From Lachnospiraceae bacterium (GTDB lineage: Bacteria; Bacillota; Clostridia; Lachnospirales; Lachnospiraceae), in contig JAFZSQ010000002.1 of the NCBI GenBank assembly GCA_017619295.1, forward strand, positions 1 through 57,496: a stretch of 57,496 bases of DNA, given 5' to 3'. Position 1 is the first letter of the stretch. Every line of letters starts with the position of its first letter. This document shows, piece by piece, positions 6,380-41,315 of the stretch. Both the position numbers and the translations under genes were made by a program. Under the pieces are notes generated by a model. That model ran no database searches, was not told the origin of the DNA, and saw nothing but the letters and a program-made list of their open reading frames with translations.

Positions 6380-6929
6380 AAACTGCCACTCCAACCACTG
6401 CTGCAATGCATATAAGTCCAATGGGTGACAGTCCTTTTTTGAATACTTTTCTCGAAGCGAAATATATTACTGCAAGGCCGCAAGTTATTAGAGCAGCAGT
6501 TATATCAACACTGCTCTCCGTCTTTACATAGCAATTTCCGAGAATCATATATACACCGGTTGCGAGAATTACACCGATTACGCAAGGTTTGAGTCCTCGC
6601 ATTGTCGCCTGCACATAGGGATTCTTAAGAAGACTCTTCGAGAGCACCATTATAAACAGGATAATCAAAAACGCCGGAAGAATGACTGCCAGCGTAGCAA
6701 TGACCGCCCCTAACAGACCTCCTTTATTGCTACCTACATAAGTTGCAAGATTCACCATAATAGGACCGGGCGTACTCTCGCTCACCGCTATCATGTATGA
6801 AAGCATCTCATCATCCAGCCATCCATGCGCCAGTACCACATCTCTGATAAGTGGTATGGCCGCATATGCTCCGCCAAAAGAAAACAGACCGACTTCCAAA
6901 AAGCCTATTAAAAGGTCAAGATAAATCAT
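6369..6929 (-). CDS. chrA: Chromate transporter CHR-family half protein (second of pair)
   Basis: 186 residues. FGGAYAAIPLIRD and SESTPGPIMVNLATYVGSNKGG are the FGG and TPGP/G-Y-VG motifs of the CHR superfamily. Several hydrophobic stretches follow, enough for about six membrane segments. This is the short (single-domain) form; its partner overlaps its start by 4 bp, so two half proteins probably assemble into one transporter. Known members export chromate or exchange sulfate; many clostridial pairs have no proven substrate. Confidence 0.88.
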   Translation of the reverse strand: MIYLDLLIGFLEVGLFSFGGAYAAIPLIRDVVLAHGWLDDEMLSYMIAVSESTPGPIMVNLATYVGSNKGGLLGAVIATLAVILPAFLIILFIMVLSKSLLKNPYVQATMRGLKPCVIGVILATGVYMILGNCYVKTESSVDITAALITCGLAVIYFASRKVFKKGLSPIGLICIAAVVGVAVYGL

Positions 6930-12377: not shown

Positions 12378-12926
12378 TTATAAAGATTTACACATGAGTA
12401 TTTCATCATGATAGATTCCATCATCAAACAAAAGAGCCTTGGGCCTGCGACCGTATTCCACGAAGCCGGACTTTTTATAAAGAGCCGTGGCTCTTTCGTT
12501 GTCTGCAACCACTTCAAGTTCAACCTGCTTATAACCTATCTCTTTGGCCAGATCTGTAAGATACTCCATCATGGCTTTTCCAATTCCAAGCCTCCAATAC
12601 TCCTGATAAAGAGCGATAGCCAGGCCGCAGCGGTGTCTTACCTTTCTCTTTTCTCCCATGCCGTTTATACTGCCGTTTCCAGCTACTTTTCCGTCAACTA
12701 GAGCAACCATCATTACGGAACGTGGATCCTCGTAGAGCCTGTCAAGGATTGCCTTCTCAGCATCAAGTGTATAGCTGACTTCGTCAGGATTTCGCAAAAG
12801 AAATGGCGTCTCCGCAGAAGTTTTCTTGAGATAATCGATCATATCCTGTGCATATTCTGATGTATTTGGCATAAGCTTACAAACTCTGCCATCCGCAAGC
12901 TGAACATATTTTGTTTCGAATTGCAT
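12378..12926 (-). CDS. GNAT family N-acetyltransferase
   Basis: 182 residues. GLAIALYQEYWRLGIGKAMMEYLTDLAKEIGY contains the acetyl-CoA loop YWRLGIGKAM, and ERATALYKKSGFVEYGRRPKAL is the C-terminal wedge. The start ATG has AGGAG 10 bases upstream. The leader and any promoter fall inside the 52.5-bp repeat array that ends 30 bp away, so that array is the gene's upstream control region or leader. Substrate unknown. Confidence 0.87.
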   Translation of the reverse strand: MQFETKYVQLADGRVCKLMPNTSEYAQDMIDYLKKTSAETPFLLRNPDEVSYTLDAEKAILDRLYEDPRSVMMVALVDGKVAGNGSINGMGEKRKVRHRCGLAIALYQEYWRLGIGKAMMEYLTDLAKEIGYKQVELEVVADNERATALYKKSGFVEYGRRPKALLFDDGIYHDEILMCKSL

Positions 12927-12955: not shown

Positions 12956-13276
12956 CGTGTCCTGGAATCATTACAAAAACACGTTATATATGATAAAGAA
13001 TATTCTGGCGTGTCAGTTTTTGTCGAGAGGGACACGTGTGAAGCCTCAAAATCCTTTCTGCGTGTCTATGTTTTAAAGATTCAACACGTAAATTGGGAGC
13101 TGTTGAGCATTATCGTGTCTTTGATTTGGATCATTGGACACGTAAATTTGATTTACTTGGATTTAACGTGTATGCTCAGTAAAATTTCGACACGCAAAAC
13201 TGCAAACATTGTTATACACGTGCCTATACGAGCTTATTTCGACACGCAAATCCGAAAGCATCATCATATACGTGCC
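12956..13276. repeat. Array of 6.5 units of inverted hexamers, period 52-53 bp
   Basis: CGTGTC (or CGTGTA/CGTGCC) begins at 12956, 13009, 13061, 13114, 13167, 13219 and 13271, steps of 53, 52, 53, 53, 52 and 52. Each of the first six is followed 16-17 bp later by GACACG or AACACG at 12978, 13031, 13083, 13137, 13189 and 13241. Sequence between the hexamers is mostly not conserved; the last two units are closest to each other. The mean period, 52.5 bp, is five helical turns, putting every hexamer on one face of the DNA. It fills most of the 371-bp gap between a GNAT gene and a methyltransferase gene. It is not a CRISPR (the supposed repeat interior varies) and not coding. Confidence 0.85.
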
Positions 13277-13297: not shown

Positions 13298-14053
13298 CTA
13301 CTTCCTCGCCATCACCGCATACCACTGTGTATTGTCGAAATCCTCCACCTTTCTGGCAGTGGGGAATTCTATGATTTCAATTTCCCTGTAACCAAGTTCC
13401 TTAAGCTTGTTTACAGCCATGTCCTTGGGGAAGGGATTGTAGTGCTCCTCAAAAATCTCCTTCTGGAACATCTTATTGTCCTTCTCAAATGTAAACAAAA
13501 GGTTGAAAATAATGCTTCCGTCTTCAGGATAATCCCATACCTGAACAAGATTAACTCTTGTATCTCCATCGAAGAATGGATTGTATAAGTAAAACCTCTG
13601 GTGGTTTCTGAAAATCATCTCCCAGTTTCTGGAATCATAATAAAGATATCCGCCGTCAGCCACATGCTTATCCATCTGCTCAAGTGCCGCACAAACGTCG
13701 TCATTGCTTACATATGCCAAAGAATTACCTGTGCTTGCAACCAAATCAAACTTCTCATCTCCCCAGCAATCAAGCTTTCTGAAATCACTCTGTTTAAGAG
13801 TTGCCTTCTTACCTACTTTCTCCATTTTCTTACCGCAGTTAGCTAACATCGTATCGCTTAAATCCGAACCGGAAAGTTCGATTCCCAAATCCAAAACAGG
13901 AATGGTTACGCTTCCGGAACCTATGCTTACATCAAGCATGGTCTTAACGTTCTTTCCTTCAAAAATTTTCTCCCAATACTGTTTGTAGAAAGCCCTGCTT
14001 TCCCTGGTGTCTGTCAGATCATAAATATCTGCTCTGTCATACATACTTGCCAT
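13298..14053 (-). CDS. Class I SAM-dependent methyltransferase
   Basis: 251 residues, ATG preceded by AAAGGAG. TMLDVSIGSGSVTIPVLDLG (about residues 39-58) is motif I with SIGSGS in place of GxGxG, ELSGSDLSDTML is motif post-I, and FDLVASTGNSLAYVSNDD and GGYLYYDSRN are later motifs. HQRFYLYNPFFDGDTRVNLVQVWDY resembles the glycine/sarcosine N-methyltransferase branch. Small-molecule substrate, not specified. A 225-residue frame running antisense to it and across the repeat array is a shadow. Confidence 0.85.
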   Translation of the reverse strand: MASMYDRADIYDLTDTRESRAFYKQYWEKIFEGKNVKTMLDVSIGSGSVTIPVLDLGIELSGSDLSDTMLANCGKKMEKVGKKATLKQSDFRKLDCWGDEKFDLVASTGNSLAYVSNDDVCAALEQMDKHVADGGYLYYDSRNWEMIFRNHQRFYLYNPFFDGDTRVNLVQVWDYPEDGSIIFNLLFTFEKDNKMFQKEIFEEHYNPFPKDMAVNKLKELGYREIEIIEFPTARKVEDFDNTQWYAVMARK

Positions 14054-20126: not shown

Positions 20127-20187
20127 GGTGCAATTAGGGCCTGTCCCCAACTGCACCGTGCAATTGGGGACAGTCCCCGATTGCACC
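20127..20187. repeat. Dispersed palindrome, two tandem copies (b), ending at a stop codon
   Basis: Copy 1 at 20127-20157 and copy 2 at 20158-20187, head to tail. Arms are GGTGCAATT(A/G)GGG and CCCCAACTGCACC, with minor changes. The second copy ends inside the TAG (reverse complement at 20187-20189) of the esterase gene. The minus-strand transcript of the esterase would run straight into the hairpins; there is no run of T after them. Confidence 0.85.
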
Positions 20188-41256: not shown

Positions 41257-41315
41257 TGCAGTTGGGGCCTGTCCCAGATTGCACGGTGCAGTTGGGGCCT
41301 GTCCCCAACTGCACC
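41257..41315. repeat. Dispersed palindrome, two tandem copies (d), at a stop codon
   Basis: Copies at 41257-41284 and 41285-41315, the second ending one base before the TAA (complement 41316-41318) of the GNAT gene. The second has perfect outer arms GGTGCAGTTGGGG / CCCCAACTGCACC. Confidence 0.85.

Follow-up and report, generated by a model that had tools for sequence, protein, structure and literature searches.

Cooperative phased operator arrays combine same-face spacing of their sites with cooperation across the whole array. The REPtrons (TnpA_REP/RAYT with REP/BIME) bring together alternating short repeats, often in tandem, intergenic and dispersed, and an associated endonuclease gene (PMC8266576; PMC2817692, PMC8049555). 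The array analysed here lies in a 57,496-nucleotide stretch of Lachnospiraceae DNA (the window, meaning the whole stretch). Its inverted words return after every five turns of the helix, and it is an orphan member of a kind of array that, in bacteria of the gut and rumen, is often found directly ahead of a nuclease-like gene, with a word particular to each array. Such arrays have the same general layout as the REPtrons: alternating inverted, tandem, dispersed repeats with an associated gene. The titles and abstract openings found by searches of the open-licence PMC literature contain no description of such arrays or of their nuclease, and the arrays and the nuclease together point to an undescribed protein-DNA system.

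The array of the window

The genome from which the window comes (G000; 2.75 Mb, 99 contigs, 95.8% complete) carries the following features at this locus:

12378..12926, minus strand: GNAT acetyltransferase gene, start codon ~30 bp from the array
12956..13276, no strand: orphan array of phased dyads, with 13 half-sites (CGTG and CACG in turn) and a repeat period of 52-53 bp
12956..12961, plus strand: half-site CGTGTC without recognisable 5' partner
12978..13014, no strand: dyad 1, AACACG...CGTGTC, cores 29 bp apart
13031..13066, no strand: dyad 2, GACACG...CGTGTC, cores 28 bp apart
13083..13119, no strand: dyad 3, AACACG...CGTGTC, cores 29 bp apart
13137..13172, no strand: dyad 4, GACACG...CGTGTA, cores 28 bp apart
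13189..13224, no strand: dyad 5, GACACG...CGTGCC, cores 28 bp apart
13241..13276, no strand: dyad 6, GACACG...CGTGCC, cores 28 bp apart
13298..14053, minus strand: methyltransferase-domain gene, stop ~20 bp from the array

An earlier note, made from the sequence of the window, had described alternating inverted hexamers here, and all 13 words were recovered at the positions it gave: the CGTG cores start at 12956, 13009, 13061, 13114, 13167, 13219 and 13271, and the CACG cores at 12980, 13033, 13085, 13139, 13191 and 13243. The core-to-core distance is 24 or 25 bp from forward to reverse and 28 or 29 bp from reverse to forward (sum 52-53). The core CGTG/CACG is kept at 13/13 half-sites, whereas the full hexamers are laxer than had been claimed: CGTGTC at 4/7 forward sites (the remainder being CGTGTA, CGTGCC and CGTGCC) and GACACG at 4/6 reverse sites (the other two being AACACG). 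The unit proposed for the minus strand, TTTnCGTGTCGAAAT, fits two units and not the remaining ones; the two neighbouring genes, both on the minus strand, are those that had been named. Two additional core words, at 13035 and 13217, stand out of the rhythm and belong to overlapping CACGTG.

Chains with the observed intervals reach 13 words in the window and at most 3 in 300 whole-window mononucleotide shuffles (which, like the shuffles of the nuclease loci below, preserve base composition only), and CGTGTCN14-18GACACG matched twice in the window versus 0 in 100 dinucleotide shuffles. A word-blind detector (5-mers, period 45-59) returned this array as the only one in the 57 kb, and just 1/44 window tiles of 1300 bp held at least 3 same-word dyads, namely the tile of the array itself. 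The window array is not a product of chance. Dyads 5 and 6 share 82% identity across 49 bp, and Tandem Repeats Finder calls a repeat for the last two units only, indicating that the units are old or are held at the words only. Elsewhere in the window, tandem 30-bp repeats were found at 20128-20187 and 41257-41314, with a related palindromic motif (GGGACAGTCCC / GGGCCTGTCCC) and TGCA nearby.

A second copy and the same loci in a genome of the genus

A pattern and DNA search found one more CGTG/CACG array in G000, on contig 8 (L013:6748-7046), between an asparagine-synthase-like gene and purF (names read from the translations). This array aligns colinearly with that of the window, and the two differ at 1/59 core bases and 91/234 spacer bases (p=4e-10), indicating that the words and their spacing are held by selection. 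The proposal of the earlier note, in which hexamers and helical spacing persist and everything else is free to drift, is thus true of these two copies; the words are constant across homologous copies and do not vary freely within conserved intervals. Next to the second array (L013 ~6705-6722) stands TGCAATTGGGGACAGC, which is similar to the 30-bp repeat motif of the window.

The CACG-array pattern is absent from G001, a genome of the same genus. The NUDIX and methyltransferase genes flanking the window locus are conserved there at 85-88%, the 960 bp with the array and the GNAT gene are replaced by ~2 kb of other sequence, and the backbone common to both genomes begins at the methyltransferase gene (13298..14053). 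The purF locus of G001 carries no array and its other side differs too. Neither locus is therefore a clean empty site, given the replacement sequence at one and the differing other side at purF. A long hairpin repeat adjoins the purF-side array in G000 and is present without an array in G001; within it lies a 127-bp match, 97% identical (L013 6558-6684 in G000, L207 1292-1418 in G001), inverted between these two same-genus species.

CACG arrays in other genomes

Two adjacent dyads, written as a pattern of 20 fixed bases and run once over ~85,000 bacterial and archaeal genomes, matched 59 stretches, compared with one or two expected by simple arithmetic. Judged by record titles, Butyrivibrio, Pseudobutyrivibrio, Acetatifactor or other Lachnospiraceae/Clostridiales account for 53/59, and the remaining stretches come from Bifidobacterium pullorum (5) and a Chloroflexi genome (1). 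The B. pullorum arrays (L063, L065, L075, L086, L118) are short and have the same CACG/CGTG spacing, with linkers that extend the palindrome (GTC...GAC) in L063 and L065. When two genomes of B. pullorum and that of the Chloroflexi organism were searched with the nuclease profile described below, none gave a match; the stretches in these organisms may be unrelated repeats fitting the pattern.

The half-site consensus across the CACG arrays is [GT]ACACG[CT]A[AG]A. The 28-29 bp between the cores of a dyad were imposed by the search (27-30 allowed) and so carry no independent weight. No such constraint was placed on the linker between dyads, which fell into 22-25 (250 cases), 32-34 (31) and 41-45 bp (12), with 13 further cases of 76-78 and 97-98 bp where one dyad is skipped, and leftover single values of 52, 117 and 130. 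These classes correspond to steps of one helical turn.

Two further repeats were noticed. In one genome with CACG arrays (G278), TACCACCC / GGGGGGTA words also occur in a tandem repeat of 53 bp (L047 2338-2474). Two contigs of another genome begin 24 bases before a near-identical CGTGTGAAAA...TTTTCACACG dyad (G060:C4:24-82 and G060:C12:24-82), so that the assembly of G060 may have been interrupted there by a repeat resembling an array.

A nuclease-like protein encoded beside the arrays

An all-against-all comparison of the open reading frames near the arrays returned a recurring protein of ~265 residues. PADLOC profiles identify the C-terminal half as a PD-(D/E)XK nuclease domain (5/5 proteins, best E 8e-29 to 1e-24), and the catalytic E, PD and EH are invariant in 82/82 aligned nuclease-like rows (L124 left out). 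The predicted model (mean pLDDT 82, pTM 0.51) agrees with the PD-(D/E)XK fold at modest Z, and Foldseek returned nothing under E 0.001 for it; the N-terminal half, predicted to form a helix, a beta hairpin and a long helix, gave no informative fold match. By its sequence and its modelled fold the protein has the core fold and the conserved acidic residues of a putative PD-(D/E)XK nuclease. It has no name in Pfam or NCBIfam, and no HUH family was reported for it by Pfam, NCBIfam or PHROGs.

The profile of this protein matches 62/160 family genomes (up to 8 matches per genome), and a near full-length copy, that is a match over at least 200 of the 265 profile positions, is present in 49/160; the other 13 hold fragments or the nuclease domain only, several inside frames of ~700-1250 residues. 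In a sample of the phylum, 13/299 genomes match, and all the full-length matches fall in the same family. The nuclease domain was also seen in open frames of ~1100-1250 residues (G096:C13, G052:C1, G105:C6 and others), as in PADLOC PDC-S68, and these frames are a possible source of the domain. Several nuclease genes begin no more than a few hundred bases from a contig start (for example in G090, G075, G022, G010 and G095), and the arrays may explain such assembly breaks.

The nuclease or a piece of one was present in 14/66 CACG-array rows (in the stretch around the array), a count in which several stretches end at contig ends and the 66 rows stand for fewer distinct loci, since some were reached twice (L044/L116/L119, L045/L089, L046/L099, L047/L085). 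In the cases read, the CACG array mostly ends 23-100 bp before the nuclease start; the exception is L048, where it follows the gene.

Words and helical periods at the nuclease loci

An upstream array (at least 3 dyads of one 5-mer) was found at 43/71 distinct nuclease loci, taken from the family-genome profile matches (L124, the same locus as L122, was left out). These 43 arrays hold 3 to 13 dyads and carry 38 different 5-mers, some of which are the same half-site kind in another register; the distance to the gene start, as estimated from the profile alignment, has a median of ~97 bp (range -40 to 549). The conservation of words and helical spacing claimed for the window is thus repeated here with other words. 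Shuffled upstream regions (20 shuffles per locus) never reached 3 dyads, and the real-DNA tiles that tested positive (8/103; 44 tiles from the window, 59 from elsewhere) were all already-known arrays. No upstream array was detected by the same test at 28/71 loci; in the most distant nuclease clade (midpoint root, no support values) this was the case for 10/11.

Downstream arrays were found at 5/72 nuclease loci in one scan, the downstream control being 1300 bp long for most of L124-L153 and mostly a few hundred bases long thereafter; L048, as stated, also has its array downstream. A later scan of 9 new nuclease loci gave 5 with upstream and 3 with downstream arrays (L211, L225 and L227, of which L211 has both), and 26 of 30 nuclease loci from CACG-array genomes, several of them already among the 66 rows, had at least 3 dyads of some word. 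No promoter was established between the array and the nuclease gene.

The same-word periods below 100 bp fall into discrete classes: 51-54 (67 cases), 61-65 (38), 71-75 (49), 84-86 (9) and 94-96 bp (2), without cases between the classes in this histogram (<100 bp only), in which L124 is still included and one locus (L122) is therefore counted twice. The best helical period is 10.45 bp (vector length 0.874, n=50; one value per array and class, L124 left out), obtained with a detector that had no built-in knowledge of 10.5 bp. The classes recurred in the loci scanned later, with one clear misfit (60 bp in L262, out of phase). Periods in helical steps indicate a design for double-stranded DNA in which the complexes line up along one face, and this periodicity is the strongest result of the analysis.

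The same geometry bears on the hairpin-forming RNA that the earlier note had considered, that is, an array acting as tandem hairpins in a leader or a small RNA. The inverted words can pair, arrays at nuclease genes are often found directly before the start codon, and the bases at +4 beside the core agree above the shuffled level (z 2.9 in dyads, 2.4 across linkers), as do those at +8 across linkers (z 3.5). However, the other flanking positions show no excess agreement in 338 unique dyads, two of them being in deficit (z -2.8), so that the dyad halves covary little; the spacing steps of 10.45 bp fit B-DNA, and the window array has no match to an Rfam family. An RNA is accordingly disfavoured, and we consider it very improbable.

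Two known DNA-binding proteins were also considered. WhiA recognises the word GACAC; it was rejected as the reader, since the word changes from nuclease to nuclease. NikR-like operators have a 6-N16-6 layout; this candidate was rejected, since it is precisely the 16-base linker whose length changes in helical turns.

Correspondence between words and nucleases

The word differs between the arrays of different nucleases, yet it changes together through the whole array, as expected if every nuclease reads its own word. In the nuclease tree (FastTree, midpoint root, no support values) the CACG-word nucleases group together, with L154, which has another word, among them; L273, L274 and L275 score like the CACG group and have the words GCATG, ACGCC and ACACT. 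For the other 43 arrays, word similarity falls weakly with tree distance (r -0.16, 10/1000 shuffles as strong), which could be explained by co-inheritance alone. Close relatives can carry different words, indicating that words change fast. The predicted beta hairpin reads GYQYY in all ten CACG rows covering that segment, and GFQYY (L262) or GYHYY (L261) in later CACG-word proteins; GYQYY also occurs with other words (L183, L274, L275), and the hairpin is at most a candidate for the reading head.

If the nuclease reads the word, an orphan array is expected to share its word with a nuclease of the same genome, and G000 and the genome of L084 provide such cases. G000 encodes two nuclease homologues, neither of them with a CACG array: the nuclease on contig 36 has an ACTAA/TTAGT array upstream (word-blind detector) and that on contig 2 a CATAA/TTATG array. 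ACTAA dyads match 29 times in this genome, on both strands, versus 1 match for the reversed control pattern, and these matches are the nuclease array (contig 36) and orphan arrays (contigs 35 and 54). The genome of L084 combines an orphan array of GACACT units with a nuclease whose own array reads ACACT. The nuclease profile matches 24/28 CACG-array-bearing genomes (the four without a match comprise a 1.8 Mb MAG, the Chloroflexi genome and two genomes of Bifidobacterium), a co-occurrence that is partly built in, since some arrays were found beside nucleases; 14/28 encode a nuclease with at least 3 upstream dyads of a CACG-type word (30 matches looked at). A nuclease with a CACG array was not found in G000 (~96% complete), and the partner of the window array either lies in the missing 4% or was lost.

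Another DNA-binding protein encoded by the host, such as a nucleoid protein, a partition protein or a global regulator, might instead read the words, the nuclease being only one of its targets. Consistent with this, 52/66 CACG-array rows show no nuclease in the examined stretch (contig-end stretches and duplicate rows included), and in G000 both CACG arrays persist although no CACG nuclease was detected. Nonetheless, a single host reader could not serve all the arrays, since the nucleases of one genome differ in word (ACTAA and CATAA in G000), and the grouping of the CACG-word nucleases in the tree argues in the same direction; we regard a host reader as quite unlikely.

Conservation and dispersal of the orphan arrays

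Among the orphan arrays of Pseudobutyrivibrio ruminis the cores differ at 0-1/110 bases and the spacers at 115-157 of ~500, indicating that selection acts on half-sites also at a distance from the nuclease. Spacer drift among the compared orphan arrays reached 23-39% while the half-sites stayed fixed. The core-versus-spacer comparison gave p <0.05 in 10/18 cases (several reciprocal; cores defined in the first sequence of each pair, arrays found via two perfect adjacent dyads). The non-significant cases were mostly pairs too little diverged to tell, the others being L082/L087 (core 2/50, spacer 6/203) and L070/L100, which differed at 8/65 core and 73/323 spacer bases (p=0.07). An ordinary decayed tandem duplication or a coding remnant without function, suggested by the recent duplicates (dyads 5 and 6) and by the open plus-strand frame that runs across the window array, is hardly credible against this fixation of the P. 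ruminis cores and a window period that alternates between 52 and 53 and is not a multiple of 3.

Several arrays are present as copies at unlinked places with sharp limits, which indicates dispersal: L067 and L102, in one genome, share 94% over ~500 bp with different flanks; L247 and L248 (ACTAA orphans of G000) have 312-324 bp in common at 85%, comprising the array and ~30 bp beside it, with differing neighbouring genes; and L064 and L094 (Butyrivibrio sp. MC2021) share 87% over 706 bp. The last two are composites, in which AGGATAA words are followed by CACG words, with a conserved segment of ~250 bp in front. In L044 (8131-8500) and L045 (8190-8593), CACG arrays run directly into CATG-word arrays of about the same 52-bp geometry. 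Tb.RUG.144 has 8 array stretches and P. ruminis DSM 9787 has 4, each genome with one nuclease beside a CACG array. A palindromic repeat of ~150 bp is also found in P. ruminis DSM 9787 (L228-L236; 9 matches), several times at the ends of CACG arrays; 4/9 matches have no CACG chain nearby, so this repeat is a separate element. In L233 it lies beside units of another word, TACTATCT/AGATAGTA.

Dispersal raises the alternative of a selfish, REPtron-like mobile system, in which the nuclease mobilises the arrays as non-autonomous elements and regulation is secondary. The near-identical arrays at different places, the presence in several genomes of many array stretches with one CACG nuclease, and the absence of the CACG pattern from G001, where both G000 loci differ, are in line with this alternative. 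On the other hand, orphan half-sites that remain fixed while the spacers drift suggest that the arrays are used once dispersed, the compared loci provided neither a target duplication nor a clean empty site, and the palindromic repeat flanking the P. ruminis arrays means that another element may move them. We consider a primarily mobile system unlikely.

Proposed mode of action

Among the three readings of the earlier note, the cooperative regulator array is the best fit; a centromere-like site may be considered too, but no observation speaks for it. We think it probable that the arrays are docking or operator sites for their cognate nuclease, with cooperative assembly on one face, autorepression, and binding in trans at the orphans. 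This proposal starts from the observed geometry and its generality, the helical steps, the linkage to the nuclease, the differing words, the same-word orphans, the conserved half-sites and their dispersal. The array would be a cluster of docking sites for a sequence-specific protein, most likely the ~265-residue PD-(D/E)XK nuclease-like protein. One dimer would occupy each unit, a pair of half-sites in inverted orientation (here [GT]ACACG[CT]A) whose cores are separated by 28-29 bp; neighbouring dyads, 5, 6, 7 or 8 helical turns apart, would place the complexes on one face, where they could touch and bind cooperatively. As the array mostly lies just upstream of the nuclease start codon, the bound nuclease would be retained at that place and would shut down its own expression. 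The orphans would have been scattered as array copies and would act in trans as sinks, sequestering the protein, or as secondary sites; since they keep their half-sites, they probably still bind in trans. The window array would be such an orphan.

A possible, if doubtful, variant is a nuclease with a DNA antidote, in which each nuclease has a private word and is caged in an inactive state on the phased arrays, the orphans adding sink capacity. Losing array sites would then free active nuclease, and word switching between paralogues would give mutually blind systems, as with restriction specificities. This variant would explain the purifying selection on orphan half-sites, the patchy distribution, and nucleases decaying before arrays.

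Significance and comparison with known systems

The docking array, as proposed, links an unnamed nuclease family, common in Lachnospiraceae, to differing words and helix-quantised arrays. The loci offer a natural library of protein-word pairs for the readout of a DNA-recognition code, and a clean test case for the control of cooperative assembly by helical phase. Arrays that restrain the nuclease would amount to a new kind of DNA-based antidote, and arrays that are moved by it to a new repeat-dispersal system outside the HUH enzymes.

Unlike the identical direct repeats and unique spacers of a CRISPR array, the window array has words of alternating orientation and units that vary in everything else. 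Compared with structured RNA families, there was no curated match and little sign of covarying stems. On the protein side, the closest known systems include PADLOC PDC-S68, PDC-S69 and HEAT_CxxC_PD-DEXK, whose nuclease domain is homologous (E down to 8e-29) and whose profiles, of 288-1273 positions, are matched by the array-linked protein in the C-terminal part only, and PD-(D/E)XK nucleases such as Tn7 TnsA, Bax1, Can2/Card1 and VRR_NUC. The differences from cooperative phased operator arrays are the 2-14 dyads per array, the scattering of orphan copies and the presumed reading of the words by a nuclease.

With respect to the REPtrons, the enzyme differs, being an HUH (Y1) tyrosine endonuclease there, while the array-linked protein looks like PD-(D/E)XK. 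The REPtron tag before the palindrome (GTAG or CGTC) has no counterpart common to the array consensus strings, GTAG occurring in few of the 44 consensus rows (L132, L170, L174). The arrays are not classified as REPtrons, since both enzyme class and tag are defining. Moreover, the words differ from nuclease to nuclease, unlike REPtron repeats, and REPtrons work on folded single-strand hairpins, a mode that seems less likely for the nuclease-linked arrays, which are spaced by turns of the double helix and show little pairing covariation. With these differences, the REPtrons are the known systems that work most like the nuclease-linked arrays.
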